Below are positions 8,301-53,495 of a stretch of DNA of 64,000 bases, piece by piece. This DNA comes from Micromonospora sp. NBC_01796 (GTDB taxonomy: Bacteria; Actinomycetota; Actinomycetes; Mycobacteriales; Micromonosporaceae). The position numbers were made by a program, and so were the translations under genes. Position 1 is the stretch's first letter; each line of letters begins with the position of its first letter. The stretch covers positions 186,001 to 250,000 of the forward strand of contig NZ_CP109078.1 of assembly GCF_035917455.1 (NCBI RefSeq), in the 5' to 3' direction. The notes below the pieces were generated by a model. That model was given only the letters and a program-made list of their open reading frames with translations, was not told the DNA's origin and searched no databases.

Positions 8301-8906
8301 TCAGGCGGTGGCTTCCCGGACCAGGTCCACGAAGTACTGGTGCACCCGCAGATCCCCGGTCAGCTCCGGGTGGAACGAGGTGGCGAGCAGGTTTCCCTGC
8401 CGTACCGCGACGATCCGGTTCGCCGCCGGACCCTCGGTCACCCGGCCCAGCACCTGGACCCCGTCACCCACCCGCTCCACCCAGGGAGCCCGGATGAAAA
8501 CGGCGTCGAACCGGGGACCGGGCACACCGGTGATCTCCACCGGGGCTTCGAACGAGTCGACCTGCCGGCCGAACGCGTTGCGCCGGACGGTCATCTCGAT
8601 GCCGTCGAAGCCGCGCTGGTCGGGTCGCCCGTCGAGGACCTCGGTCGCCAGCATGATCATGCCGGCGCAGGAGCCGTAGACCGGCATGCCGTCGGTGATC
8701 CGCTTGCGGATCGGTTCGAGCAGCTCGAACTCGGCGACCAGCTTGCTCATCGTGGTGGACTCGCCGCCCGGGATGACCAGGGCGTCGACGTCGTCCAGCT
8801 CCGAGGGCCGGCGGATCGGCCGGGCGATCGCGTCGTCGGTGCTGGCCAGGGCCAGCAGGTGCTCGCGTACGTCACCCTGCAACGCGAGCACGCCGATGGT
8901 GGTCAT
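8301..8906 (-). CDS. pdxT: Pyridoxal 5'-phosphate synthase glutaminase subunit PdxT
   Basis: This 201-residue class I glutamine amidotransferase supplies ammonia to PdxS for PLP synthesis. Visible motifs are [11 protein letters not shown] at the N-terminus, GGES at 47-50, the nucleophile Cys in YGSCAGM (Cys80) and the His-Glu pair in SFHPELTGD. Start: ATG 8906 fits the usual family N-terminus and has GGGAG before it. An ATG at 8942 would add 12 atypical residues and overlap pdxS. The gene follows pdxS by about 25 nt, so they form one operon and one enzyme complex. Confidence 0.96.
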
Positions 8907-8931
8907 CTGCCGCTCCCGTTTGCTACCGGGT

Positions 8932-9849
8932 TCACCAGCCACGCTCGGCGAGGCGGTGCGGCTGCGGGATCTCGTCGACGTTGATGCCGACCATCGCCTC
9001 GCCCAGGCCCCGCGAGACCTTCGCCAGCACGTCCGGGTCGTCGTGGAAGGTGGTCGCCTTGACGATCGCGGCGGCCCGCTGCTCCGGGTTGCCGGACTTG
9101 AAGATCCCCGAACCGACGAAGACCCCCTGCGCGCCGAGCTGCATCATCATCGCGGCGTCCGCCGGGGTCGCGATGCCTCCGGCGGTGAAGAGTACGACCG
9201 GCAGCTTGCCCGTCTCGGCCACCTCACGGACCAGCTCGTACGGCGCCTGGAGCTCCTTCGCCGCGACGTAGAGCTCGTCCGGGGCGAGCGAGCCGAGGCG
9301 GCGGATCTCGCCCAGGATCTTGCGCATGTGGGTGGTCGCGTTGGAGACGTCACCGGTGCCGGCCTCGCCCTTGGAGCGGATCATCGCCGCACCCTCGGTG
9401 ATCCGGCGCAGCGCCTCGCCCAGGTTCGTCGCCCCGCAGACGAACGGCACCGTGAACGCCCACTTGTCGATGTGGTTGGCGTAGTCGGCCGGGGTCAGCA
9501 CCTCGGACTCGTCGACGTAGTCGACACCGAGCGCCTGGAGCACCTGTGCCTCGACGAAGTGGCCGATCCGGGCCTTGGCCATCACCGGGATGGAGACCGC
9601 GTTGATGATGCTGTCGATCATGTCCGGGTCGCTCATCCGGGAGACGCCGCCCTGGGCCCGGATGTCGGCCGGCACCCGCTCCAGCGCCATCACCGCGACC
9701 GCACCGGCGTCCTCGGCGATCTTCGCCTGCTCGGCGGTGACCACGTCCATGATCACGCCGCCCTTGAGCATCTCGGCCATCCCGCGCTTGACTCGGGCAC
9801 TGCCGACGACGGGGCTGGCGGACTCTGGCTGCACGGCGGAATCGGACAC
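8932..9849 (-). CDS. pdxS: Pyridoxal 5'-phosphate synthase lyase subunit PdxS
   Basis: The 305-residue PdxS/SNZ protein condenses ribose 5-phosphate, glyceraldehyde 3-phosphate and ammonia into PLP. Visible features are the amidotransferase contact region [20 protein letters not shown], the first catalytic lysine in VMAKARIGH, the second in RSKGEAGTG, and the phosphate-binding AGGIATPAD and GSGIFKS. The start is GTG 9849 with GAGGAG nine nt upstream. It is first gene of the pdxS-pdxT operon. Its position between the PIM genes and yebC matches mycobacterial gene order. Confidence 0.97.
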
Positions 9850-9975
9850 GCTCAGTCACTCCTCAGGGGCGGGATTCACATTCCGCAACCGATGTTACGC
9901 GCGCCCGACGCCCCGCCCCACAGCCAATCAACCCCCCCGTGGCCTCCCCTGTGCCCAACCTCACCCCACCCAAAA

Positions 9976-10059
9976 CCCCGTCGATCTTGCACTTGTGGTC
10001 GTGGACGAATCACCACTTTCACCACATCCCCTGGCACCACAACTGCAAGATCGACGGGG
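9976..10059. repeat. Intergenic hairpin, GATCTTGCACTTGTGG type
   Basis: Arms 9976-9999 and 10036-10059 pair over 24 bp with one mismatch around a 36-nt loop. The core CGATCTTGCACTTGTGG recurs in the hairpin at 40900-40977. It lies between the stop of the membrane-protein gene (10124, minus) and the pdxS start, after a C-rich transcript stretch. It may be a terminator or a dispersed palindromic repeat. Confidence 0.8.
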
Positions 10060-10060
10060 C

Positions 10061-10140
10061 TCTGGGTGGGCGGGGCGGGTGGGGACGGGGCGGGGTGGGT
10101 GGGGTGGGGTGGGGTGGGGTGGGTCAGGCGGGGGCGGGGC
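10061..10140. other. G-rich tract (C-rich on the transcript)
   Basis: The plus strand is almost pure G with T interruptions (repeats of GGGGT). On the minus-strand transcript this is a C-rich, G-poor run covering the last codons of the membrane-protein gene and leading into the hairpin at 9976-10059. It could form a G-quadruplex in DNA or act as a Rho-loading stretch. A similar tract lies at 17034-17085. Confidence 0.5.
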
Positions 10141-10699
10141 GGTTGTCGGGGGTTGGGGTGGGTTGGGGCAGCGGGGGTGGTGGTGATGGTGGTGAGGGTG
10201 GTGAGAGGGCGGCGGGGAGGGGGTGGAGGGTGGGGTCGTCGACGTCGAAGTAGGTGGGGCGCTCGTGCTTGCGAGCCATCCGGAGCAGGCGTACGACGGG
10301 GCGACGGCGGGCGGTCAGCGCGTCGCGTACGAGATCGGTGTGGACCTGGCGGGCCAGGCCGAGCCGGCGGCTGGCCGCGATCACCGACTCGGCGGCCGGG
10401 TCGTCCGCCGCGATCGGGGTGAAGCGGAGCTGGCGGGTGAGGTCGTTCTCGGCCGCCTCACGCTCCTGCGGTCCGGCGTCGAGCGCGATCCGGGCCGCCG
10501 CGTAGAGCTCCACCGAGAGGTGCTCCTCGGCCAGCACCGCCGCGGCGGCGGCCCGGCGCAGCAGGTGCGCGTCGAGGGACCGGGCGGCCGAGGCGACCCG
10601 GATGTGGAGCCGGTCGACCCGACCGGCCGTCCAGGACAGGTACACCGCGATCAGGCCGATCACGGCGACAGCACCCACCAACCACCACATGTGCGGCAT
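10124..10699 (-). CDS. Single-pass membrane protein of the PIM locus
   Basis: The 191-residue protein has one N-terminal membrane helix (WWLVGAVAVIGLIAVYLSW, residues 5-23) and then a long helical cytoplasmic region (~25-150) rich in Ala, Arg and Glu, ending in a Pro-rich tail. It has no enzyme motif. In mycobacteria the gene at this place, next to pimA, encodes a membrane protein with a NUDIX domain. The present protein has a comparable membrane N-terminus but no NUDIX box. I infer a locus-conserved membrane protein of unknown role. It lies 83 nt downstream of pimA. Confidence 0.75.
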   Translation of the reverse strand: MPHMWWLVGAVAVIGLIAVYLSWTAGRVDRLHIRVASAARSLDAHLLRRAAAAAVLAEEHLSVELYAAARIALDAGPQEREAAENDLTRQLRFTPIAADDPAAESVIAASRRLGLARQVHTDLVRDALTARRRPVVRLLRMARKHERPTYFDVDDPTLHPLPAALSPPSPPSPPPPLPQPTPTPDNRPAPA

Positions 10700-10782
10700 C
10701 GTCGTGCGGCTCCCTCATCCCGTCCGGCCGGAGGCGCGTGTACGCCGCCGGCACCTGCATGCGAGCCGACCGCCGTCCCGGC

Positions 10783-11943
10783 TCAGCGTGGCCCCACCCA
10801 CTCCTGGTCGATCACCCGTCCGTCGGTGGCCTCGATCGCAGCTGCGTATACCTCCAGAACCCGGCGGGCAACCATCGGCCAGTCGAACATCGCCACGACC
10901 TCCCGCGCGCAGGCCGACAGGGCCGCCCGGCGCTCCCGGTCGTCGAGCAGTTCGACGAGCGTACGACGCAGCGCCTGGGCGTCACCGGTGGGGAAGAGCT
11001 GCCCGGCCCGGCCCCCGTCCAGCACCCGGCGGAACGCGTCCAGGTCACTGGCGACGATGGCGGCTCCGGCGGCCATCGCCTCGGTGAGGATCATGCCGAA
11101 CGACTCACCACCGGTGTTCGGTGCGACGTAAACGTGCACACTGCGCAGCATGCGTGCTTTGTCCGCCTCGGAGACCAGGCCGAGGAAGGTGATCCGATCG
11201 CGCAGCTCCGCCGGGACGTCCTCCATCAGCTCGGTCGGCTCGCCCGGCCCGGCCACCAGCAGACGCAGGCCGGGGCGTTCCGCGGCGAGCGCCACGAACG
11301 CCTCCCGGAGCAGGGCGAACCCCTTGCGCGGCTCGGTGAACCGGCCGAGGAAACCGATCGTGCCGCCGGTGCCGGGCGCGCACTCCCCCGGCCACCCCGG
11401 CAACGGCTCGGCGTCGGCGAACTTCGCCACCGCCACCCCGTTGGGGATCTCCACCGCGCCGCCGTCGAGGTGCTCCACCTGCACCTTGCGGGCCAGTGCG
11501 CTGACCGCGATCCGGGCGGTGATCCGCTCCAGCACGATCTGGAGCATGCCCTGCGCCGCGGCGAGCGCCCGGGACCGGGTCATCGCGGTGTGGAAGGTCG
11601 CCACCACCGGACCCCGCGCCGACATCACGGCCAGCAGCGACAGGCTCAACGCCAGCGGCTCGTGCACGTGCAGTACGTCGAAATCGCCCCGGGCGATCCA
11701 CCTGCGTACCCGGGCGGTCGAAACCGGGCCGAAGGTGATCCGGGCCACCGACCCGTTGTACGGAAACGGCACCGACCGGCCCGCCGTCACCACGTACGCC
11801 GGTAGCGGGGAGTCCTCGTCCGCCGGGGCGAGCACGCTCACCTCGTGTCCGAGACCGATCAGGGCCTCGGCCAGATCCATGATGTGGTTCTGCACCCCGC
11901 CCGGCACGTCGAAGGAGTACGGGCACACGATGCCGATCCGCAC
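10783..11943 (-). CDS. pimA: Phosphatidylinositol alpha-mannosyltransferase PimA
   Basis: This 386-residue GT4 enzyme transfers the first mannose from GDP-mannose to phosphatidylinositol on the inner membrane face. The N-terminal acceptor domain begins GIVCPYSFDVPGGVQNH. The C-terminal donor domain has GFLGRFTEPRKGFALL and the GT4 E-x7-E region in NTGGESFGMILTEAMAAG. Start: GTG 11943, since PimA proteins begin at this MRIGIV-type motif. Upstream extension would run into the acyltransferase gene. It follows that gene by 14 nt, as in other actinobacterial PIM operons. Confidence 0.93.
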   Translation of the reverse strand: MRIGIVCPYSFDVPGGVQNHIMDLAEALIGLGHEVSVLAPADEDSPLPAYVVTAGRSVPFPYNGSVARITFGPVSTARVRRWIARGDFDVLHVHEPLALSLSLLAVMSARGPVVATFHTAMTRSRALAAAQGMLQIVLERITARIAVSALARKVQVEHLDGGAVEIPNGVAVAKFADAEPLPGWPGECAPGTGGTIGFLGRFTEPRKGFALLREAFVALAAERPGLRLLVAGPGEPTELMEDVPAELRDRITFLGLVSEADKARMLRSVHVYVAPNTGGESFGMILTEAMAAGAAIVASDLDAFRRVLDGGRAGQLFPTGDAQALRRTLVELLDDRERRAALSACAREVVAMFDWPMVARRVLEVYAAAIEATDGRVIDQEWVGPR

Positions 11944-11957
11944 TTGCGCCCTCCCCC

Positions 11958-12890
11958 TCAGGCCGGCCCGGGGGCGGCTGGTGTCACCGGGTCCGAGGGT
12001 GCCCGATCCCCGTCGGCCAACCACATCCGCTGCAACATGTGCCAGTCTTCCGGATGCTGGGCGATACCGGCCGCGAGATGGTCGGCAATGTCCTGGGTCA
12101 GCGCCCGTACCCGCTCGGTGAGGGTGCCGCTGTCCGGGTCCGGCAACTTCAGCGGGCCGATCAGCTCGGCGAGCGCCTTGTCCGGTTCGTACCACATCGA
12201 GGCGACGTAGAGCGGGGCCCCCGTACTGAGGGCGAGCAGGGCCGGACCGGCCGGCATCCGGGTACGGGCACCGAAGAACCGGACCTCGATCCCCCGACGG
12301 GTCAGGTCCCGGTCGGCGAGCAGCGGCACCACGTGCCCCTGACGCACCCGCTCGGCGAGGACGTCGAACGGCGGCTGCTGCCCCCCGGTGAGCGGGATGA
12401 TCTCCATGCCGAGCCCCTGACGGAACTCCAGGAACCGGGTGTAGATCGCCTCCGGCTTGAGCCGCTCGGCGACCGTGGTGATCGGCCAACCCATCGCCGC
12501 GACCCAGGCACCGGCCGCGTCCCAGTTGCCCCCGTGCGGCAACGCGATCACCGCGCCCCGCCCGGCGGCCACGTCGGCGGCCAGCATCTCGGTCCCGACC
12601 AGCTCGAACGTGGCCAGCCGCTGGGCGTGCGACAGCGACGGCAGCCGGAACAGCTCCAGCCAGTAACGCGCGTACGAGCGCAGCCCACGCCGTACGAGCT
12701 GGTCGAACTCGGCCTGCGGCAGGTCCGGGCCGACGACCTGGCGCAGGTTGTTCGCCAGCCGCTTCACCCCGGGGCCACCCTGCCGGTACGCCCGGTCGGC
12801 GCCGAGCCGGAACACGGCGGCGGCCAGCGGCCTGGGCACCGTACGGGTGATCCGCCAGCCGGCCAGATAGCCCAGCTCGACCAGATTCAC
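11958..12890 (-). CDS. PIM acyltransferase (HtrB/LpxL-like)
   Basis: This 310-residue lysophospholipid-acyltransferase-superfamily protein acylates a mannose of PIM in the related mycobacterial pathway (PatA/Rv2611c type). The catalytic HxxxxD motif is present as LPHGGNWDAAG near residue 119, followed by RFFGARTRMPAGPALLA and a PEDWHMLQ C-terminal signature. It lies between pgsA and pimA, which defines its pathway. It has no signal peptide but amphipathic N-terminal helices for membrane contact. A gap of 37 nt separates it from the pgsA stop. Confidence 0.9.
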   Translation of the reverse strand: MNLVELGYLAGWRITRTVPRPLAAAVFRLGADRAYRQGGPGVKRLANNLRQVVGPDLPQAEFDQLVRRGLRSYARYWLELFRLPSLSHAQRLATFELVGTEMLAADVAAGRGAVIALPHGGNWDAAGAWVAAMGWPITTVAERLKPEAIYTRFLEFRQGLGMEIIPLTGGQQPPFDVLAERVRQGHVVPLLADRDLTRRGIEVRFFGARTRMPAGPALLALSTGAPLYVASMWYEPDKALAELIGPLKLPDPDSGTLTERVRALTQDIADHLAAGIAQHPEDWHMLQRMWLADGDRAPSDPVTPAAPGPA

Positions 12891-43232: not shown

Positions 43233-44213
43233 TCACTCGGAGAGGAACTCGATCACCGCGCGCTCGATGGCCTCCGGTGCGCCGTCGGGATCGATCTCGG
43301 CCGTGTGACCGTCGTGGTAGCGGTCGATCAGCCTCGGGTCCACGTAGGACGCCCGGGCCACGGCCGGGGTGTTGCCGAGCAGCTCGGCCACCTCGCGCAT
43401 GACCCCGGCGACCACCCGCTTGCGCCTGGTCTCGGACCGCTCCGGCCCCTGCCGCGCCAGCGCGAGGGACGTCCGTAACGTGGCGTGCCAGGTTCTGAAG
43501 TCCTTCGCGGTCATCTCGCCACCGCTGGCCGCCCGCAGGTACTCGTTGATCTCGTCGCTGCGTACGTCCCGCCAGCCGTGGCCGTCCCAGTAGCCGAACA
43601 GCCGGTCCGCGTCACGCCGCCGCCTGCGCAGGTCCCGCAGTACGGCGCAGAGGCCGGCGTCGTCGATCCGCTGCACCCGGGCGATGCCGCCCTTGGCCGG
43701 GAACTCGAACACCACACACCCGCGCCGGGTACGGGTGTGCTCCGGACGCAACGTGGCGACGCCGAAGGTCGGGTCGTCGCCGGCCGCGTACTGGTCGCTG
43801 CCGATCCGGAAGGTGCCGGAGTCGAGCAGGCTCGCCACGGTGGCCAGCACCCGTTCCCGACCCAGGCCCCGACCACTCAGGTCGGCGCCGAGACGGGCGC
43901 GCAGCGCCGGGAGCCGGGCGGCCACCTCCAGCACGTGGTCGAACTTCGCCTCGTCCTGGCGTACCCGCCATTCGGGGTGGTAGAGGTACTGCTTGCGCCC
44001 GGCGGCGTCGATCCCGGTGGCCTGGATGTGCCCGGCCGGGTCGGGCGAGATCCATACGTCCCGCCAGGCGGGCGGGATCACCAGTCCCCGGAGCCGGTCC
44101 AGCTCCCGGGAGTCGCGGATCGGGCGGCCACCGGGGTCGACGAAGCTCACGCCGCGACCGCGGCGACGCCGACCGTACCCGAGCTTCGCCGGGTCGCTAC
44201 GTCGCAACCGCAT
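43233..44213 (-). CDS. DNA topoisomerase IB (poxvirus type)
   Basis: The 326-residue enzyme has the bacterial TopIB N-terminal domain (SFVDPGGRPIRD, then LVIPPAWRDVWISPDP and HIQATGIDAAGRKQYLYHP). Its catalytic domain has FEFPAKGG, AKDFRTWHAT and the tyrosine in RASYVDPRLIDRY (~290). It relaxes supercoils by nicking one strand. The ATG at 44213 is where homology starts and overlaps the GT9 gene by 17 nt, so it sits at the end of the heptose/glycan operon, an unexpected partner. Confidence 0.93.
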   Translation of the reverse strand: MRLRRSDPAKLGYGRRRRGRGVSFVDPGGRPIRDSRELDRLRGLVIPPAWRDVWISPDPAGHIQATGIDAAGRKQYLYHPEWRVRQDEAKFDHVLEVAARLPALRARLGADLSGRGLGRERVLATVASLLDSGTFRIGSDQYAAGDDPTFGVATLRPEHTRTRRGCVVFEFPAKGGIARVQRIDDAGLCAVLRDLRRRRRDADRLFGYWDGHGWRDVRSDEINEYLRAASGGEMTAKDFRTWHATLRTSLALARQGPERSETRRKRVVAGVMREVAELLGNTPAVARASYVDPRLIDRYHDGHTAEIDPDGAPEAIERAVIEFLSE

Positions 44214-45210
44214 AGCGGGTCCGCCCCACCCGGTCGACCTCGTCGACGGCGGCGAGTACCTGTTCGATGCCGATCGCGGCCAGCGTCGGATGGGTCGTGG
44301 AACGCTCGCTGTCCCCGTCGACCGGCACCTGGTCCGGCACCTCCGGGTCGAGCCCCGGCAGCCCCGGATCGTCCGCGTCGGCCATCGCGGCGGCCCACAG
44401 TGCACGGTGCCAGGGCCGGTCGGCCGGCGGACCCCAGTGCTCGGGGCGGACCGGGCCGAACAGCACCACCGAGGGAATGCCGTACGCGGTCGCCAGGTGC
44501 GCCACACCGGTGTCCGCACTGACCACCAGCCGGCTGTGCGCGACCACCGCGGCCAGCCCGGAGAGGTCGAGCCGGCCGGCGAGGACCGCCGGACCGGGCA
44601 GGCCCGCCCGGTGGGCCACCTGTTCGGCCAGGTCACGTTCGGCGGCCGAGCCGGTCACCACCACCCGATGCCCGGCCCGGGTCAGTTCCGCCGCCACCGC
44701 CGCGAACCGCCCCGGCGACCAGCGCTTGGCCGCGATCTTCGCGCCGGGGTGGACCACCGTCACCCCGACCGGCACCCGGTGCGGGCTGGGCCGGCTCAGG
44801 GCCAGGTCGGTCGGGTCGGCGGGGATGTCGTACCAGTCGAGCAGCCGGCACCAGCGGTCCACCTCGTGCTCGTCGGCCGACCACGGCGGACCGTCGGTGT
44901 GGTGCGCCTCCGGGTTGTGGAACGCGCACAGCCGCTCCGGCCCGGCGGCCTGGAGGACCCGGTGCGACCGGGGCCCGCGCCCGTGCAGGTTCACCGCCCA
45001 GTGCGGCGCCGGTCCCGGCCAGTCGACCCCGTCCAGACCGTCGGTGGGCACCAGCCGGTCGACCCCGCCGACCAGGTCGACCAGGGGCGCCAGCCAGGCC
45101 GGCGCGGCCAGGGCGAGGGTCCGGTCCGGGAACGCGGCGCGCAGGCCGCGCAGCGCCGGGACCGCGGTCGCGAGGTCACCCACGCCGAGCGCCCGCAGGA
45201 CCAGGATCAC
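44197..45210 (-). CDS. Glycosyltransferase family 9 (heptosyltransferase type)
   Basis: The 337-residue GT-B protein opens ILVLRALGVGDLATAVPALR, the GT9 start. It has VVHPGAKIAAKRWSPGRFA (the donor-binding HPG) and VVSADTGVAHLATAYGIPSV near residue 230. GT9 enzymes transfer ADP-heptose in Gram-negatives. Adjacent genes for heptose precursor synthesis support the same donor class here. It overlaps the dehydrogenase gene by 4 nt and topoisomerase by 17. Confidence 0.88.
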   Translation of the reverse strand: MILVLRALGVGDLATAVPALRGLRAAFPDRTLALAAPAWLAPLVDLVGGVDRLVPTDGLDGVDWPGPAPHWAVNLHGRGPRSHRVLQAAGPERLCAFHNPEAHHTDGPPWSADEHEVDRWCRLLDWYDIPADPTDLALSRPSPHRVPVGVTVVHPGAKIAAKRWSPGRFAAVAAELTRAGHRVVVTGSAAERDLAEQVAHRAGLPGPAVLAGRLDLSGLAAVVAHSRLVVSADTGVAHLATAYGIPSVVLFGPVRPEHWGPPADRPWHRALWAAAMADADDPGLPGLDPEVPDQVPVDGDSERSTTHPTLAAIGIEQVLAAVDEVDRVGRTRYAVAT

Positions 45211-45908
45211 GGGTACGACGTCTCTTGCTCGGCGCAGACCACGAGTTCACGGATCGCGCAGCCGGCCGGCTGGCTGAGCGCGAACAGGACGGCGGAGGCC
45301 ACACTCGCCGGATCGTTGAGCACCGCGTCGGCACCCGGCCGGTACTGCTCCGTACGCTCGTCGAAGAAGGCCGTACGCATCCCGCCCGGCACCAGCAGGG
45401 TGACCCCGACCGAGCCCGCCAGCTCGGCGGCGAGCGCCCGGGTGAAGCCGACCACCCCGAACTTGGCCGCGCAGTACGCGGTCGCGTCGCTGACCGCCTT
45501 CACGCCCAGCGTCGAGGCGACGGTGACCACCGTCCCGTGCGTACGTTCCAGGTACGGCAACGCCGCCCGGACCACCGCCACGGTGGCCAGCAGGTCGACC
45601 GTGACCACCTTCTCCCAGGTTTCGGCGGGCAGGTCGACCAGCCGGCCGGGCACGTCCATGCCGGCGGCGGTGACCAGCCCGTCGAGCCCACCGGCCTGCT
45701 CGGCGAGCTGTCGGGTGGCCTGCTCGGCGGCGCGGGTGTCGGCCAGGTCGCACTCCACCCACGGCACCCCGTCGGCGGGCGCCTGCCGGTCCAGCACGTA
45801 CGGCCGGCCGCCGGACTTGGCCACGGCGGTGACCACCGCCGCGCCCAGCCCGCTGGACCCCCCGCTGATCAGTACGGCCGGACCGGCGCCCGGCATGGTT
45901 GCGGTCAT
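45207..45908 (-). CDS. Short-chain dehydrogenase/reductase
   Basis: This 233-residue classical SDR has the nucleotide loop ISGGSSGLGAAV (~14-25), the catalytic Ser in VASTLG, Tyr-Lys in YCAAKFG (YxxxK, ~148) and LVPGGMRTAFF. Its substrate may be a sugar or sugar nucleotide given the operon. It is too short and lacks features of HldD epimerase, so an epimerase role is not supported. It is coupled by 4-nt overlaps on both sides. Confidence 0.9.
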   Translation of the reverse strand: MTATMPGAGPAVLISGGSSGLGAAVVTAVAKSGGRPYVLDRQAPADGVPWVECDLADTRAAEQATRQLAEQAGGLDGLVTAAGMDVPGRLVDLPAETWEKVVTVDLLATVAVVRAALPYLERTHGTVVTVASTLGVKAVSDATAYCAAKFGVVGFTRALAAELAGSVGVTLLVPGGMRTAFFDERTEQYRPGADAVLNDPASVASAVLFALSQPAGCAIRELVVCAEQETSYP

Positions 45909-47344
45909 CGCGCTCCTCCCGTCAGGCGTCGCGCGGCCGTACGGGCCAGCGCGATCATGCCGGTGGTGGACCGTCCGTCCAGGTACGGCACCACCACCGT
46001 GTGCCCACCCCACCGGTGGACGATCCCGGCCTCGGGCAGGTCCGGTTCGTCGCCGCCGCCGGTGCCGTAGTCGCCACCCTTGACCCAGATGTCCGGGCGC
46101 AGCCAGGACAGGGCCGCGTGCGGGGTGGACTCGTCGAAGATCACCACGGCGTCGACGCAGCCGAGCGCGGCCAACAGCCGGCTGCGGTCGTACTGCGGCA
46201 CCAGGGGGCGGTCGGGGCCCTTCAGGTCGGCCACGCTCGCGTCGGAGTTGAGGCAGACGATCAGGCAGTCGCCGAGCCGGCGGGCCGCCTCCAGGGTGGC
46301 CACGTGGCCGGCGTGCAGCAGGTCGAAACAGCCACCGGTGGCGACCACGGTCCCACCGGCGGCGCGCACCTCGGCGACCAGTGCACCGGCCGCCGCGGCA
46401 CCGATCCGTTGTTCCCCTCCGGCGACCGAGACCGAGACCGGCTCGGGCACCGGGGCCGGTACGGCAGCCGCCACACCCCCGCCGGCCACGTACGCGGACG
46501 CCTCGGCAACCGCCTGCTGCACCGCCTCGGAGACCAGTGCGCCCCGGGCCAGTGCCACGGTCGCGGCGGCGGCGAACCGGTCCCCGGCCCCGCAGGTGTC
46601 CCCGTCCGCGCTGGTCGGCGACGGCACCACCAGCGGCGTCGAGCCGGCGTGGCAGAGCAGCGCACCGTCCCCGCCCAGGGTCACCGCGACCGCGCCGACC
46701 CGCCACCGCTGGCGCAGCCCGTTCGCTCCCCGGGAGGCGGTGATCAGGCGGGACGCGCCGGGCGTACCGCCGGCCAGTTCGCGTACCTCGACCTCGTTCG
46801 GGCAGGCCAGGTTGACGCCGGGCACCGCCGCCGGGCCGCGCGGGTGCGGGTCCCAGACCACCGGTGCGGTCGCGGTGGCCAGGGCGGCGCGCAACCCGGG
46901 CTGGGCCGCCACCCCACGCCCGTAGTCGCTCACCAGGATCCCGGCCGCCCCGGCGAGCAGGTCCAGGATCGCCTCGCTCGGTTCGCCGGGCGGACCGGCG
47001 GCACCGCCCCGGTCGAGTCGCAGCAGCACCCGGCCACGGGTCCGCAACCGGATCTTCTCCGGCGTGGCGCCGGGCAGCGGCAGCGCGTAGACCTGCACCC
47101 CGGCGGCGGTCAGCAGGCTGCTCAACCGGGCCCCACCGGCGTCGTCGGCGAGCGCGGTGACCAGGGCGACCTCGAAGCCCTGCCCGACCGCGAACAGGGC
47201 AGCCAGACCCGCGCCACCGGGCCGGTCGACGTGGGTGCTCTCGTCCAGCACCGGCACCGGGGAATCCGGGCAGAGCCGGTTGACCACACCCTCCACGTCC
47301 CGGTCGAGCAGGGTGTCGCCGATGACCACCAACTGCCCGGTCAC
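45905..47344 (-). CDS. hldE: Bifunctional heptose 7-phosphate kinase / heptose 1-phosphate nucleotidyltransferase
   Basis: The 479-residue two-domain protein follows HldE/RfaE. Residues 1-~290 are a PfkB-type kinase (GDTLLDRDVEG, then SDYGRGV, anion-hole DGDTCGAGDRF ~250). Residues ~335-479 are a cytidylyltransferase-type domain with GGCFDLLHAGHVATLEA (HxGH ~343) and VKGGDYGTGG. It would make heptose 1,7-bisphosphate and then a nucleotide-heptose. Which nucleotide (ADP or GDP) is not readable. Start GTG 47344 overlaps the isomerase stop by 4 nt. Confidence 0.88.
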   Translation of the reverse strand: MTGQLVVIGDTLLDRDVEGVVNRLCPDSPVPVLDESTHVDRPGGAGLAALFAVGQGFEVALVTALADDAGGARLSSLLTAAGVQVYALPLPGATPEKIRLRTRGRVLLRLDRGGAAGPPGEPSEAILDLLAGAAGILVSDYGRGVAAQPGLRAALATATAPVVWDPHPRGPAAVPGVNLACPNEVEVRELAGGTPGASRLITASRGANGLRQRWRVGAVAVTLGGDGALLCHAGSTPLVVPSPTSADGDTCGAGDRFAAAATVALARGALVSEAVQQAVAEASAYVAGGGVAAAVPAPVPEPVSVSVAGGEQRIGAAAAGALVAEVRAAGGTVVATGGCFDLLHAGHVATLEAARRLGDCLIVCLNSDASVADLKGPDRPLVPQYDRSRLLAALGCVDAVVIFDESTPHAALSWLRPDIWVKGGDYGTGGGDEPDLPEAGIVHRWGGHTVVVPYLDGRSTTGMIALARTAARRLTGGAR

Positions 47345-48180
47345 GGCCCGGCTCCACGGCCGTTCGGCCCCCGGCTGTGCGTACGCCGCGAGCGGACCGG
47401 CCGGTGTTCCCCCGGCTGCCACTCCCCCGGCTCCCGCTCCACCAGTGGCGGATCCACCACCCCCGGCACCACCAGGTCGGAGTCGACCAGCGGCGGATCG
47501 ACCACCTGCGGCTCGGTGGTCCCGAAGGGGTCGTCGGCTCCTCCGCTCCCGTCCGGTGTCGGGTCGACGAGCGGCAGTGCGGCGTACCCGGCCGGTACGC
47601 CGAGCGCGGTGGGCAGGGCCAGTTCGACGTACTCGCAGAGCAGGTGGGCCGAGACGAGGTGGAGTTCCTGCACCACCTGCGGGTCCGGTGACGGTACGGC
47701 GAGCACCTCCGCGCAGACCTCGGCCAGCGGGTTCGGCACCGGCCCGGTGAACGCCCAGCACCGCAGCCCGGCCTCCCGTCCGGCGCGGGCGGCCCGGATC
47801 AGGTTGGCGCTGCGCCCGCTGGTCGACAGCAGCAGGAGGATGTCGTCGCGGCGGCCGTGTGCGCGTACCTGCCGGGCGAAGACCTCCTCGAAGCCGTAGT
47901 CGTTGCCGATCGCGGTCAGCGAGGAGGTCTCCGCGCTGAGCGCGATCGCGGACAGCGGCGCCCGGTCCGCCCGCAGCTTGCCGACCAGTTCGGCGGCGAG
48001 GTGCTGGGCCTCGGCGGCGCTGCCCCCGTTGCCGGCGACCAGCAGCCGCCCGCCCCGGGCGAGCCGGTCGGCCAGTTCGTCGCCCCACCGGGCGAGGTCG
48101 CCCGCCACCCGCCGGTACGGCAGCAGTGCCGAGGCCAGACCGGCGAGGTGCGCGTCGATCACCTCGGTGGAGTGCGTCAT
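47341..48180 (-). CDS. gmhA: Sedoheptulose 7-phosphate isomerase-like SIS protein
   Basis: The 279-residue protein has a SIS domain (~1-195) with LVAGNGGSAAEAQHLAAELV (~45-64), AETSSLTAIGNDYGFEEVFA and LLSTSGRSANLI, the phosphate-binding motifs of GmhA. A further ~80 residues (acidic and Pro/Val-rich, ending in an Arg-rich stretch) are absent from standard GmhA of about 190 residues. It would supply heptose 7-phosphate to the next gene product. The ATG shares one base with the preceding stop (TGATG). Confidence 0.88.
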   Translation of the reverse strand: MTHSTEVIDAHLAGLASALLPYRRVAGDLARWGDELADRLARGGRLLVAGNGGSAAEAQHLAAELVGKLRADRAPLSAIALSAETSSLTAIGNDYGFEEVFARQVRAHGRRDDILLLLSTSGRSANLIRAARAGREAGLRCWAFTGPVPNPLAEVCAEVLAVPSPDPQVVQELHLVSAHLLCEYVELALPTALGVPAGYAALPLVDPTPDGSGGADDPFGTTEPQVVDPPLVDSDLVVPGVVDPPLVEREPGEWQPGEHRPVRSRRTHSRGPNGRGAGP

Positions 48181-49397
48181 CAGGCCACCACCCCGCTCGG
48201 CCGCCGCACCTCGCTGACCGCCGTGTACACCCCGCCCAGTTCGGCTGCGGCGCGCCGCCACGAGTACTGCTGCCGGGCCCGGTCCAGGGCCGCCTGGGCG
48301 TAACCGAACCGGCGGGTCCGGTCGGCCAGCAGGCCGGCGATGGCGGCGCCGAGCGCGCTCGGGTCGCGCGGCGGCACCAGGTCACCGGTCCGGCCGTCCA
48401 CCACCGTGTCGATGAGCCCGCCGACCCGGGTGCCGATCACCGGTACGCCGCAGGCCATCGCCTCCAACGGGGTCAGCCCGAACGGTTCGTACCAGGGGGC
48501 GGCGACCAGGACGTCCGCCGACCGGTACCACTGGGGCATCTCCTCGCGGGGTACCGCACCGACCAGGCGTACCCGGTCGGCGAGGCCGCACGAGCGGGCC
48601 AGCGCCCGCAGCCGGCGCGCCTGCGGGTCCTCGCCGAGCAGTTCCTCCGGCGGCCCGCCGACGATCACACACTCGGCGTCCGGTACCGCGCGCATCGCCC
48701 GGATCACGTCCTGGAAGCCCTTGCGTTCCACCAGCCTGCCCACGGTCAACACCCGGGGTCGGCCGGTCTCCCGGGCGGCGACGGGTCCGGCCGGGGAGAA
48801 GTTCTCCACGTTGACCCCGGACGGCACCACCACCATCCGGTCCTGCGGCACGCCCATCCGGACGAGTTCGCGTACCTCGTCCTGGCTCTGCGCGATGACC
48901 CGGTCCATGGCCCGCCCCAGGGCGCGTTCGTAACCGATCCGGCGGGCCGGGCTGGTGTCCGCCGCCCCCTGGTGCCTCCGCTTGACCGTGCCCAGCGCGT
49001 GGTAGGTCTGCACCACCGGCACGCCGGTCTGCCGGCCGGCGGTGATCGCCGCGAGGCCGCTCATCCAGAAGTGCGCGTGCGCGACGTCCGGGACCCAGTC
49101 GTCGCGCCGCCACGCCGCGACCAGCCAGCGGCTGAACTCCTTCATGTACGGCAGCAGCGCGTCCTTCACGATCGGCTCGGGTGGACCGGCCGGTACGTGC
49201 ACCACCGCCACCCCGTCGAGCATCCGTACGAGTTCGGGCAGGTCGGCACTGTCCCGCCGGGTGTAGACCCGTACGTCGTGTCCGGCCGCGGCCAGCGCGG
49301 CGGAGAGCTCGGCGACGTGCGTGTTCTGCCCACCGGCATCCTCCCCGCCCAGCGTGGCGAGCGGACTGGCGTGCTCCGAGATCATCGCGATCCGCAT
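48180..49397 (-). CDS. Glycosyltransferase family 4
   Basis: The 405-residue GT-B enzyme has an N-terminal domain beginning MRIAMISEHASPLATLGGED and a donor domain with VLTVGRLVERKGFQDVI and the E-x7-E element in WYEPFGLTPLEAMACGVP. The AGGQNTHVAELSAALAAAGH segment recalls sucrose-phosphate-synthase/MshA-like GT4 enzymes. Acceptor and donor are unknown. The GAGGAGGAG ribosome site is strong. It overlaps the next upstream glycosyltransferase by 16 nt. Confidence 0.9.
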   Translation of the reverse strand: MRIAMISEHASPLATLGGEDAGGQNTHVAELSAALAAAGHDVRVYTRRDSADLPELVRMLDGVAVVHVPAGPPEPIVKDALLPYMKEFSRWLVAAWRRDDWVPDVAHAHFWMSGLAAITAGRQTGVPVVQTYHALGTVKRRHQGAADTSPARRIGYERALGRAMDRVIAQSQDEVRELVRMGVPQDRMVVVPSGVNVENFSPAGPVAARETGRPRVLTVGRLVERKGFQDVIRAMRAVPDAECVIVGGPPEELLGEDPQARRLRALARSCGLADRVRLVGAVPREEMPQWYRSADVLVAAPWYEPFGLTPLEAMACGVPVIGTRVGGLIDTVVDGRTGDLVPPRDPSALGAAIAGLLADRTRRFGYAQAALDRARQQYSWRRAAAELGGVYTAVSEVRRPSGVVA

Positions 49398-50359
49398 AGC
49401 TCCTCCTCCAGCAACCGGTCCCAGTCGGTGAGGAAGCGGTCCAGGCCGTACCGGGTCCGGGCGGTCTCCCGGGCCCGGGCGCCGAGCCGGTGTGCCGCCG
49501 CTGGCTGGTCGATCAGGTGCGCGGCGGCGGCCAGCAGGGTGTCGACCCGGGTGGACAGCACGCCCGCTTCCGGTGGCACCGCCGCCACCGCCTCGGTCGC
49601 CGCGAGTACGACCACCGGCATGCCGATGGCCATCGCCTCGATCAGGCTCAGCCCGAGCGAGGTCCACCGGCACAGGTGCAGGTACGCCCGGCGCCGGCCG
49701 AGTTCGGCCTGCATCCGGCTCTGCGGGAGATCGTCGTGGGTGGTCAGCCGCTCGGGCGGCAGGCCGAGGTGGTCACCGAGACCGGCCACGCCCAGCCCGA
49801 AGACGTCGAGTGGAGCGACCTCGGCGAAGCGCGGCAGCAGGTCGGTGCCGGTGACCCGGCCTCGGCGTACCGGTTCGTTGATCACGACGGCGAGGCGGTC
49901 GAGTTCGCCGGTGTAGCTCGCCACCGGGTCGACGATGCCGTGTTCGACGACCGTGGTCCGGGTGCCGCCGGTGTCCCAGAACAGCGAGTTGAAGTGGGTG
50001 ACGTGGGCGATCAGCAGGTCGTCCCGGTCGGCCATCGGGTGCCGGCTGTTCGGCACCGCGCCCTCCTTGGGCGTGTTGTGCTCGACGAAGATCGCCGGCA
50101 ACGAGCCCCCGATCGGGCGGCGCAGCCACTGCCCGGCCAGCTCGAACTCCTCCGGCCGTTGCAGGATCACCAGATCCACGTCGGCGTCGGCCAGTTGCTC
50201 CGGGGTCACCTCCTCGGCCGTGTCCGGCCAGGGGTACGTGCGGGCCCGGCCCAACCCGTACGGGCCCCGGTCGGGGGTGACCGGCACCAGGTAACGGTGC
50301 TTGCCGTGCACGAAGGACGTGGTCCATGAGCCGTGCACGTGCCAGAGCAGGATGTTCAT
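49382..50359 (-). CDS. Glycosyltransferase (GT4-like)
   Basis: The 325-residue protein opens NILLWHVHGSWTTSFVHGKH. A donor-side region has RRRAYLHLCRWTSLGLSLIE and AMAIGMPVVVLAATEAV, equivalent to the GT4 E-x7-E area. Actinobacterial glycan clusters often contain this short type. The ATG at 50359 overlaps the phosphatase-GT9 stop by 4 nt. Donor and acceptor are unknown. Confidence 0.85.
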   Translation of the reverse strand: MNILLWHVHGSWTTSFVHGKHRYLVPVTPDRGPYGLGRARTYPWPDTAEEVTPEQLADADVDLVILQRPEEFELAGQWLRRPIGGSLPAIFVEHNTPKEGAVPNSRHPMADRDDLLIAHVTHFNSLFWDTGGTRTTVVEHGIVDPVASYTGELDRLAVVINEPVRRGRVTGTDLLPRFAEVAPLDVFGLGVAGLGDHLGLPPERLTTHDDLPQSRMQAELGRRRAYLHLCRWTSLGLSLIEAMAIGMPVVVLAATEAVAAVPPEAGVLSTRVDTLLAAAAHLIDQPAAAHRLGARARETARTRYGLDRFLTDWDRLLEEELCGSR

Positions 50360-52260
50360 GCGGTGCCGCCGGGGACCCGGACCGTGACGCCGGCAAGCGA
50401 CCCGTCGGTGGCGCCGGCGAGCAGTCGGTCGGCGGTGCCGACGAGGGGTCGGTCGGTGGTGTCGACGAGGGGTCGGTCGGTGGTGCCGGCCGGCAATCGG
50501 TCGGTGGCGAGGAGCCGGACCGCCTCGACGACGCTGTCCGGCGCGACCCGGGACAGGCACGGGTGACCGGGCACCGGGCAACGGGTGGCCCGGGTGTGCC
50601 GGCAGCCGGCGGCGGCGTCGCCGAGTCGGACCGTGGGCACCCGGTACGGACCCCACTGTCCGAACGAGACGGTCGGTGCGAAGAGGCTGATCACCGGCGT
50701 ACCCAGGGCTGCGGCGAGGTGCGCGGGCCCGGTGTTTCCGACGACCAGGCACCCGGCGCGGGCGATGATCGCGGCGAGTCCGGTCAGCGAGGTCTGGCCG
50801 CCGAGGTCGACGCCGGACCGGCCGGCGACCCGGGCGCTGAGCGCCCCCTCGCCCGGTCCCCCGGTGACCACCACCCGGTGTCCGGCAGCGGCGAGCGCGG
50901 TCACGATCCGGGCACAGAGGTCGGGCGGGCAGGCGCGGGCGGCCACCGACGAACCGGGGTGGACCACGACGTAACCGGGTTCGGCGAGCGCGCCGTCGGT
51001 CGGTCCGCTCTCCAGGCACTCGGCCCGTAACCGCAGCGCCGGATCGTCCCCCTCGGGAAGCGGGAATCCGGCGGCGGCGGCGAGCGAGAGCGCGCGTTCG
51101 GTCTCCGGGATGCCCAACGGCACCCGGTGCCGTACGTCCAGCAGGGAGCCCGGGTAGTCGTCGCTGATCGCCGAGATCCGGCCGACCCCGGCCATCCGGA
51201 GCACCAGGGCGAGCGGCAGCGCGGACTGGTGGAAGGAGGTGAACAGGACCGCCTCGTCGGCGCCGACCTCGGCGAGCCGGCGGGTCAGCCGGTCCACCTC
51301 GGACCGGTCGACCGGGGTCGGTTGCGGGTCGATCCACGGCAGCGGCCACTCGATCAGCTCGTCGATGCCGGGCAGCAGTTCGGCGGCGGCCCGACCCCGG
51401 GGTCCGCAGAGCATCACCACCCGGTCGGCACCGGCCGCCACCGCCCGGATCGCCGGCCCGGTGACCAGCACGTCTCCGGCCGAGTCCGGCCGGGCCACCA
51501 GGACGCAGCGCGGCCGGCGCGGGGATCCGGCGGCGACCGGGTTCGGCTCGGTCGCGAGCCGGTCGGCGCCGGTGGACACGCTGTCACGGGCGGGCGAGAC
51601 GAGTCGTTGGCGGCGCAGGATGAGGTCGACCGCGCCCGGCAGGTCACCGGCGACAGCCGGGGCGGCGGCGATCTCCTCCATCCGGGTCTGCGGGGTCGGC
51701 ACCAGGATTCCGGCCGCTCCGGCGGCCCCTGCGGCGATCATGTCCGCACCGATGTCTCCGACCAGGACGCAACGGTCGGGTGTGGTGCCGAGGGCGCGGG
51801 CGGCGTCGGAGACCATGCCGGGTGACGGCTTGCGGCAGCGGCAGCCGGAGACACCCGGGCCCGGTTCGCCGTGCGGGCAGATCTGCCAGGTGTCGAACGG
51901 ACCGAGCAGTTCCTCCACCCGTGCGTTGACCCGCTCCAGGTCACGATGGCTGAACCGGCCCCTGGCGAGGCCGGACTGGTTGGTGACCACGCCGAGGCGC
52001 AAACCGGCCGCGCGCAGCCGGTCGAGTGCCTCCCGGGCACCCGGCACCGGCTCGACCAGCATCGGGTCCCCGTTGTACGGCACGTCGTGCACCAGGGTGC
52101 CGTCCCGGTCGAAGAGCACCGCGTCGAACAGCGGGGGGCGGATCAGCCCCTCCCGCTCCGGCTCGTCGCGGTTCCGTCCCGGTTCAGGTCGGCCCTGCGC
52201 GGGGCCGGCGATCGTGCCGCCTGACCTGCGCTGATGCGGGTCGACCTGATCGTTTCGCAC
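50356..52260 (-). CDS. Fusion of GmhB-type phosphatase and family 9 glycosyltransferase
   Basis: The 634-residue protein has two enzymes. Residues ~42-220 are a HAD-IIIA phosphatase: LFDRDGTLVHD (Asp51, Asp53), VTNQSGLARG, the GmhB zinc loop ICPHGEPG...CRCRKPSPGM and LVGDIGADM. Residues ~250-590 are a GT9 domain (LVARPDSAGDVLVTGPAIRA, VVHPGSS and GNTGPAHLAAALGTP). The C-terminus is five near-copies of an 8-residue unit (TDRPLVGT type). It would remove the 7-phosphate and use the product in the same chain. The start GTG 52260 is uncertain. It is the first gene of the operon. Confidence 0.87.
   Translation of the reverse strand: MRNDQVDPHQRRSGGTIAGPAQGRPEPGRNRDEPEREGLIRPPLFDAVLFDRDGTLVHDVPYNGDPMLVEPVPGAREALDRLRAAGLRLGVVTNQSGLARGRFSHRDLERVNARVEELLGPFDTWQICPHGEPGPGVSGCRCRKPSPGMVSDAARALGTTPDRCVLVGDIGADMIAAGAAGAAGILVPTPQTRMEEIAAAPAVAGDLPGAVDLILRRQRLVSPARDSVSTGADRLATEPNPVAAGSPRRPRCVLVARPDSAGDVLVTGPAIRAVAAGADRVVMLCGPRGRAAAELLPGIDELIEWPLPWIDPQPTPVDRSEVDRLTRRLAEVGADEAVLFTSFHQSALPLALVLRMAGVGRISAISDDYPGSLLDVRHRVPLGIPETERALSLAAAAGFPLPEGDDPALRLRAECLESGPTDGALAEPGYVVVHPGSSVAARACPPDLCARIVTALAAAGHRVVVTGGPGEGALSARVAGRSGVDLGGQTSLTGLAAIIARAGCLVVGNTGPAHLAAALGTPVISLFAPTVSFGQWGPYRVPTVRLGDAAAGCRHTRATRCPVPGHPCLSRVAPDSVVEAVRLLATDRLPAGTTDRPLVDTTDRPLVGTADRLLAGATDGSLAGVTVRVPGGTA
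50401..50512. repeat. 24-bp tandem repeat encoding the fusion protein's tail
   Basis: Four to five near-identical 24-bp units (each like CGGTCGGTGGTGCCGACGAG plus GGGT) lie in frame at the 3' end of the phosphatase-GT9 gene. They give an 8-residue Thr-Asp-Arg-Pro/Leu repeat. Such a run is prone to copy-number change by slippage. Confidence 0.7.
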
Positions 52261-52718: not shown

Positions 52719-53495
52719 ATGTCCGTAATGATCGAACCCGTGCAGTTGCCATCCCCGTGGCGGGATGAGCGGCTCACCGTCGTCGTCCCCACCTACAACG
52801 AGGCGGGCAATCTGCCCTTGTTGGTCGACCGACTGCTGGCTCTGCCCCTGACAGGGCTGAGCGTCCTGATCGCCGACGACAACTCCCCGGACGGAACCGG
52901 CGAGGTGGCGGACAAACTCGCCGCCGAGCACCCCGACCGGGTACGGGTCGTGCACCGGCCCGGCAAGGAGGGGCTGGGGCGGGCGTACGTCGACGGGATC
53001 AGTCGGGCGCTCGACGGCGGCGCGGACTTCGTGGCCCAGATGGACGCGGACCTGTCCCACCCGCCGGAGGCGCTGCCGGGCATGCTCGGCGCACTGCTGT
53101 CCACCCAGGCCGGCGTGGTGATCGGTTCACGCTACGTGCCCGGCGGGCAGCTCGACGAGGCATGGCCGCTCTACCGTCGCGCCCTGAGCGGCTGGGCCAA
53201 CCTCTACGTGCACACCCTGCTCCAGGTACGGATCCGCGACCTGACCGCCGGCTTCAAGATCTGGCGGGCGGACTCGCTGCGCGCGATCGGGCTGGACCGG
53301 GTGCAGTCCAACGGCTACAGCTTCCAGGTCGAGATGCACTACCTGGCGACGAAGCTCGGGCACACCATCCTCGAGGTGCCGATCAGGTTCGAGGAGCGCC
53401 GGGAGGGTGCCTCGAAGATGACCACCGCGACGAAGATCGAGAGTGCGCTGATGCCGTTCAAGCTGCGTACGCGGCATCGCAACATCACCTCGTAG
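52719..53495 (+). CDS. Polyprenol monophosphomannose synthase-like GT2
   Basis: The 258-residue GT2 enzyme has LTVVVPTYNEAGNLPLLVD, DDNSPDGTGEVAD, the DxD in QMDADLSHPPEALP, RDLTAGFKIWR and the closing PIRFEERREGASKM, all typical of DPM1/Ppm1 catalytic domains. It moves mannose from GDP-mannose to polyprenyl phosphate, feeding periplasmic mannosylation and late PIM/lipoglycan steps. Start: ATG 52719 or 52728. The latter has GAGG at better spacing. It has no membrane domain, so an N-acyltransferase partner would be elsewhere. Confidence 0.9.
   Translation: MSVMIEPVQLPSPWRDERLTVVVPTYNEAGNLPLLVDRLLALPLTGLSVLIADDNSPDGTGEVADKLAAEHPDRVRVVHRPGKEGLGRAYVDGISRALDGGADFVAQMDADLSHPPEALPGMLGALLSTQAGVVIGSRYVPGGQLDEAWPLYRRALSGWANLYVHTLLQVRIRDLTAGFKIWRADSLRAIGLDRVQSNGYSFQVEMHYLATKLGHTILEVPIRFEERREGASKMTTATKIESALMPFKLRTRHRNITS

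Follow-up and report, generated by a model that had tools for sequence, protein, structure and literature searches.

The DNA analysed here, which we call the window, is a stretch of 64,000 nucleotides from Micromonospora sp. NBC_01796, corresponding to positions 186001-250000 of a single-contig genome of 8.56 Mb. On its minus strand lies a compact operon that is predicted to make and transfer a nucleotide-activated heptose, and that we compare with the cwg operon of Streptomyces coelicolor. Genes were called with a simple codon-bias script and assigned to families by Pfam and NCBIfam searches. When starts and stops were recomputed, the minus-strand open reading frames from position 52260 down to 43233 were found to overlap successively by 4, 16, 1, 4, 4, 4, and 17 nucleotides (nt), as an earlier, sequence-only reading of this DNA had described for eight such frames (1-17 nt). 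That reading had also taken all eight to be pathway, transferase, or short-chain dehydrogenase/reductase genes. The activities are indeed present, but the glycan part consists of seven overlapping genes (44197-52260) carrying eight activities, with GmhB and one GT9 joined in a single gene, and the eighth frame encodes a topoisomerase IB.

The first gene of the operon (50356..52260, minus strand, as are all those that follow; 634 codons, GTG start) is a fusion, by Pfam and NCBIfam, of a GmhB-type HAD-IIIA phosphatase with a GT9 glycosyltransferase that we call GT9a; together these are the equivalents of cwgD and cwgE. Next come a diverged GT4-like GT-B glycosyltransferase with a weak family match, here termed GTx (49382..50359; cwgF equivalent), and a GT4 glycosyltransferase whose best NCBIfam match, MshA, was below the cut-off (48180..49397; cwgG equivalent). 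Family searches identified a GmhA-type sedoheptulose 7-phosphate isomerase of the SIS_2 family (47341..48180; cwgH equivalent) and a classical short-chain dehydrogenase/reductase (SDR; 45207..45908). Family searches combined with motifs identified, between these two, a two-domain HldE that pairs a PfkB-type heptose-7-phosphate kinase with a nucleotidyltransferase (45905..47344; cwgI equivalent) and, after the SDR, a second GT9, GT9b (44197..45210; cwgJ equivalent). Two of the proteins carry low-complexity sequence at their C-terminal ends: a proline- and acid-rich tail on GmhA (window 47341-47600) and repeated TDRPLV-like units on the GmhB-GT9 fusion (window 50356-50560).

Enzyme families for all four steps of a nucleotide-heptose pathway are found in one operon with their motifs intact. 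The GmhB domain has DRDGT at residue 51, CPH at 128, and CRC at 140, and HldE has the PfkB motif GAGD at 252, HAGH at 344, KGGDY at 422, and YLDGRSTT, with RSTT at 458. The conserved residues of the GmhA and GmhB motifs are kept. Among solved structures, relatives include the phosphoheptose isomerases 2xbl and 2x3y for GmhA, the heptose-7-phosphate kinase 4e84 for HldE, and, third in its list, the D,D-heptose-1,7-bisphosphate phosphatase 2gmw for GmhB. From family membership we infer the enzyme activities, and the operon very probably encodes a pathway to NDP-D-glycero-β-D-manno-heptose. GmhA would convert sedoheptulose 7-phosphate to heptose 7-phosphate, the HldE kinase would form heptose 1,7-bisphosphate, the GmhB domain would remove the 7-phosphate, and the nucleotidyltransferase would turn the resulting heptose 1-phosphate into the NDP-heptose. 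The nucleotide would be ADP, and possibly CDP or UDP as well, because the arginine of the GRSTT motif is present in HldE. The sequence-only reading had proposed this enzyme set for a Gram-positive actinomycete and had seen no HldD-like epimerase, and both points hold. No protein in the genome reached the HldD cut-off (best 110.4 of the 274.6 bits required), so the D,D form of the heptose is likely the one used. LpxC had no match in the whole genome, and with neither LpxC nor HldD above cut-off, we rejected a lipopolysaccharide (LPS) reading of the operon.

HldE, GmhA, and GmhB all missed their NCBIfam equivalog cut-offs (252.3 against 521 bits for full-length HldE), which counts against the heptose assignment and which, in terms of sequence, makes them diverged members of their families. 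HldE and its partners might have a hexose or some other sugar phosphate as their substrate, with no heptose in the product; HldE-like enzymes of antibiotic clusters, such as that for bleomycin, have been assigned to hexoses. We regard this alternative as very improbable, since a full linked set of GmhA, GmhB, and both HldE domains would be expected only for a seven-carbon route, and that set, with the GmhA and GmhB motif residues kept, recurs at every one of the 63 full-length comparison loci introduced below.

For the remaining genes, the sequence-only reading had listed two GT9 and two GT4-type transferases and an SDR. These families were all found, but the motifs of GT9a are altered and the match of GTx is only weak. 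Both GT9s exceed the Pfam cut-off. GT9b keeps the K-R-W and DTGxxH motifs, whereas GT9a has RAC and NTG in place of K/R-R-W and D-TG-xx-H, and an aligned WaaF structure keeps, like GT9b, the motifs that GT9a has lost. Because of this departure, two heptosyltransferases should not be assumed, and GT9b is the likeliest heptosyltransferase candidate on the strength of its motifs. The EX7E motif of GT4 enzymes is intact in the GT4 (EPFGLTPLEA), and in GTx a threonine replaces its first glutamate (RWTSLGLSLIEAM). A novel fold for GTx was considered and rejected, as the protein is GT-B and GT4-like. In the proposed scheme, GT9b would transfer heptose, and GT9a, GT4, and GTx would attach sugars, heptose or others, on the cytosolic side. 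GT9 has three matches in the genome: the two in the operon and a third, at 2.348 Mb, next to another HldE. This diverged HldE (G000:C1:2346888-2350759; positions 8889-12760 of locus L088) is 34% identical to that of the operon and is adjoined by a GT2 and the divergent GT9; neither GmhA nor GmhB was seen there. Its heptose phosphate might come from the window operon, which would suggest a second heptose product.

The operon has a published relative. For the cwg operon of S. coelicolor (SCO6179-6190, cwgA-L), excerpts of PMC5839063 list transferases and give cwgD as a "dehydratase", cwgH as a phosphoheptose isomerase, and cwgI as a bifunctional synthase/transferase. Excerpts of PMC6767563 describe its 12 genes as partly σE-dependent and vancomycin-induced, with a promoter 147 bp before the start codon. 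The operon is described as a putative cell-wall-glycan operon. We searched 392 Streptomyces genomes for the 29-base published promoter, allowing up to two mismatches, and found it in seven, once exactly. At the exact site (genome G779, locus L177), twelve genes follow in cwg order, starting 147 bases downstream. Surroundings were inspected for three of the seven (L177, L178, and L179), and the promoter headed the cluster in all three; at L178 the genes run epimerase, carbamoyltransferase, GT2, GmhB, GT9, GTx, GT4, GmhA, HldE, GT9, GT2, GT2. Because the gene order matches and the published promoter precedes it, we take the Streptomyces cluster to have the cwg layout.

The window operon has the core of this layout, GmhB, GT9, GTx, GT4, GmhA, HldE, and GT9 in that order on one strand, and at the protein level its identity to the cwgD-J counterparts in L177 is 48-63%. 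The full 12-gene form is absent: no counterparts of cwgA-C or cwgK-L lie beside the operon, and the O-carbamoyltransferase domain Carbam_trans_N (PF02543) has no match in the whole genome. Given the shared order and identity without the outer genes, the window operon is, as judged from sequence, a shortened cwg-type operon. The pathway proposed by the sequence-only reading is likely, but the operon is not the stand-alone system that it had appeared to be. Actinobacterial NDP-heptose enzymes and the cwg operon are already in print. In the open-access literature searched, we found no description of the chemical product of cwg and no statement of the cwg core as a phylum-wide heptose route or of its short form.

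Conserved co-occurrence in actinobacteria, named by the sequence-only reading as a check, was borne out by a search of several samples. Named loci were collected by a scan with GTx alone, which confirmed at least 574 relatives; the best 80 of these, ranked by GTx likeness, were used. Micromonosporaceae are over-represented among the 80, and the presence of GTx and its RWTSLGLSL motif, which served as search patterns, is given by construction. A few rows of the motif comparison are without single motifs, the hits being partial. Counts refer to the 63 "full" loci of at least 20 kb, with the 17 shorter ones left out. GmhB, GT9a, GT4, GmhA, and both HldE domains occur at all 63, and GT9b, and with it the whole core, at 61, though the order is not always kept. 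The SDR is present at 50 and absent from all 11 full Streptomycetaceae loci. Carbamoyltransferase and GT2 occur together at 38 loci, GT2 alone at two, and neither at 23, all of the latter in Micromonosporaceae. A tree of GTx groups by family: its 34 short-labelled rows are all Micromonosporaceae, other families are long (25) or end at a contig edge (4), and the named row nearest to the window, which its relatives assign to Micromonosporaceae, is Plantactinospora mayteni.

The short form, without cwgA-C and cwgK-L, is thus common in Micromonosporaceae. It is not unique to that family: in the phylum sample described below, L210 (G008) and L224 (G130), which belong to other families, likewise have no cwgB or cwgC within 20 kb, and the same is true of L225, which is strongly diverged. 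A further HldE lies close to the L210 cluster. Of the 75 named loci in which a GmhB-GT9 fusion could be tested, 46 have it, comprising 46 of 50 from Micromonosporaceae and none of 25 from elsewhere. Two proteins checked in other lineages (L213:5966-7582 and L211:13157-14686) instead join GmhB to the GT2 of the cluster. Some Micromonospora carry a long and a short copy about 180 kb apart (L118/L120 in Micromonospora mirobrigensis; L075/L076 in G534). The two GTx genes of M. mirobrigensis group with each other, as though an exchange between the copies had taken place. L108 (Verrucosispora sioxanthis) gives a poor match to the HldE kinase (52%) and a GT9b match split into two pieces, possibly reflecting disrupted genes or assembly errors.

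Across an even sample of the phylum, GTx was found in 39 of 396 genomes, representing 17 families, and in 35 of the 39 an HldE domain scoring 171 bits or more lay within 10 kb of it. The exceptions were G237, where the only nearby HldE match is weak, and G013, G200, and G381, whose genomes give no strong match. Other clusters make use of HldE as well, since 13 of 49 genomes with a match of at least 171 bits have no GTx. Of 20 further stretches from the phylum sample, 15 carried the complete set cwgB-J, and 12 of these 15 also had an SDR with 55% identity or more; cwgJ was missing at L217 and cwgH at L219 in the stretch taken. When 20 stretches around HldE matches were searched by tblastn, every operon activity was recovered in 17, of which 15 had the window arrangement and two (L085 and L086) had GT4, or GTx with GT4, displaced. 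L089, from Streptomyces, was without the SDR, and L087 and L088, picked as carrying a different HldE type, were without the operon; O-carbamoyltransferase and GT2 adjoined the operon in 11 of the 20. Because the order is repeated in so many genera, the gene set is far beyond chance.

Upstream and downstream of the glycan genes, the window offers further context. We scanned 76 upstream stretches for σE-type promoters with two regular expressions, although the stretches from long-form loci lie mostly inside the preceding gene and are little informative. In the window, a single loose match, AAC...GTC, lies some 270 nt before the GTG start; the same patterns did not find it in L070-L073 or L090. 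A GAAC...CGTC match is common to six closely related Micromonospora (L098, L100, L101, L102, L105, and L106), inside the called divergent gene, and L115 and L132 have one promoter-pattern place each. The divergent gene of the window (52728..53495, plus strand) lies outside the operon and encodes a GT2 resembling polyprenol-phosphate glycosyltransferases; it neighbours many Micromonosporaceae short-form loci. The bacterial DNA topoisomerase IB gene (43233..44213, minus strand; PF01028 and PF21338), with its 17-nt overlap, is probably on the same transcript as GT9b. It lies beside all 23 short-form and 8 of the 40 other full named loci; we rejected it as a functional part of the glycan system, as it belongs to another family and also accompanies eight long-form loci. 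The searched part of the flanks held this gene, the GT2, an aldehyde dehydrogenase, and one open reading frame without a family. Phosphatidylinositol mannoside (PIM) synthesis genes, which the sequence-only reading had called neighbours, exist as a phosphatidylinositol-phosphate synthase and a PIM acyltransferase, both above cut-off, but they are more than 30 kb distant.

What the operon builds can be approached from its transferases and from the published setting of cwg. The four transferase domains probably build a heptose-containing envelope oligosaccharide: it would be small, would end in the cell envelope, and in the lineage of the window would be without the carbamoyl and GT2 decoration of the long form. 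A surface location and acceptor are suggested by analogy with the σE and cell-wall-glycan context of cwg. Beside 39 compared loci, the recurring families were pyruvyltransferase and sigma factor (six each) and UDP-glucose/GDP-mannose dehydrogenase and major facilitator superfamily (MFS) transporter (four each); the pyruvyltransferase and the dehydrogenase would suit a polysaccharide product. In Rhodococcus ruber YYL, also an actinomycete, a strain deleted for gmhD is reported to have lost a capsule-like extracellular polysaccharide (excerpts of PMC12298843 and PMC12786566); by its name, this gene encodes a heptose 1-phosphate guanosyltransferase, which belongs to another route. A Frankia gene annotated as "ADP-heptose:LPS heptosyltransferase" is upregulated under salt (excerpt of PMC5563000).

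Several observations weigh against an envelope glycan. The operon is without a flippase, polymerase, initiating transferase, or ligase; no flippase, polymerase, or ligase recurs at four or more of the 39 loci, and the MFS transporter is the only membrane family that does. With no export or ligation gene in the operon, an envelope acceptor is weakly supported. No conserved σE-like promoter was found upstream in the close relatives of the window, and the Streptomyces wall polymers described in the excerpted part of PMC11481543, a Kdn/Gal teichulosonic acid and a Gal-GlcNAc poly(diglycosyl phosphate), are given without heptose. A rival product would be a soluble heptosylated small molecule, either a cytosolic glycoside or a specialised metabolite. 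No membrane protein is found among the families of the operon, the nearest enzymes to its GT4 and GTx, by family or by fold, have soluble acceptors (MshA, BshA, and sucrose-phosphate synthase), an MFS transporter recurs near four of the 39 loci, and ADP-heptose feeds septacidin in actinomycetes (excerpt of PMC10948575). Yet conservation over many families and a GTx tree that groups by family are unlike a specialised metabolite, no scaffold-type gene family recurs at four or more of the 39 loci, and the Streptomyces version belongs to the σE envelope-stress regulon (excerpt of PMC6767563), so that we consider this explanation unlikely. Slightly less likely still is a product that is not a wall polymer but a glycolipid or glycoprotein carrying heptose. 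Few transferases and no polymerase would fit a short, defined oligosaccharide, heptosylation of proteins by NDP-heptose is known in Escherichia coli (excerpt of PMC11461863), and the divergent GT2 of the window resembles a polyprenol-phosphate glycosyltransferase; against this, neither a protein O-transferase nor a lipid-specific family recurs at four or more of the loci, and the GT2 has no match beside the operon in loci outside Micromonosporaceae.

On balance, we give a probability of about 0.65 to the explanation that the window holds a short cwg-type operon in which an NDP-heptose route supplies an envelope oligosaccharide. With less than even confidence, we further propose that Actinobacteria share an ancient D-glycero-D-manno-heptose envelope oligosaccharide made by the cwg-type cluster. 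It would carry O-carbamoyl groups in the long form and be free of them in the short form of Micromonosporaceae, and in Streptomyces wall damage would induce it. In its sugar chemistry, though not in the way it is anchored, such a glycan would be the monoderm counterpart of the LPS inner core. For cwg, the comparison yields a testable prediction, namely that its product contains heptose, with a carbamoyl group only in long-form species. More broadly, the cwg core represents a complete nucleotide-heptose route with linked transferases across 17 sampled families. NDP-heptoses are agonists of the innate immune receptor ALPK1, according to excerpts of a commentary and a highlight on Tang et al. 2024, which makes heptose-making Gram-positive bacteria relevant to innate immunity.

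Among known heptose systems, the ADP-heptose pathway of the Gram-negative LPS inner core (GmhA, HldE, GmhB, HldD, and WaaC/WaaF) shares with the window the GmhA, HldE, and GmhB families and GT9 transferases, but the window is without LpxC or an HldD above cut-off, mixes transferase types, and fuses GmhB to a GT9. The septacidin and hygromycin B routes likewise derive heptose from sedoheptulose 7-phosphate in actinobacteria. Tridomain NDP-heptose synthetases of actinobacteria were reportedly described by Tang et al. in 2018 and 2022. Compared with those routes and enzymes, the window has a two-domain HldE, a separate GmhA, and four glycosyltransferase domains. The gmhD gene of R. ruber also ties a heptose gene to an extracellular glycan in an actinomycete, although, as far as the excerpts go, it belongs by name to a GDP-heptose route with another gene set. 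STTR5 heptose nucleotidyltransferases show relaxed NTP use, as the excerpted commentary and highlight report; the window HldE shares their GRSTT arginine (YLDGRSTT) but has Tyr and not Phe or Leu as the first motif residue. The closest likeness is to cwg of S. coelicolor, with compact genes running from cwgD to cwgJ in the same order. That operon additionally has cwgA (NDP-sugar epimerase/dehydratase), cwgB (O-carbamoyltransferase), cwgC (GT2), the GT2s cwgK-L, and a σE-type promoter of which no conserved equivalent was found for the window operon, whereas the window has an SDR, a GmhB-GT9 fusion, and a topoisomerase IB downstream.

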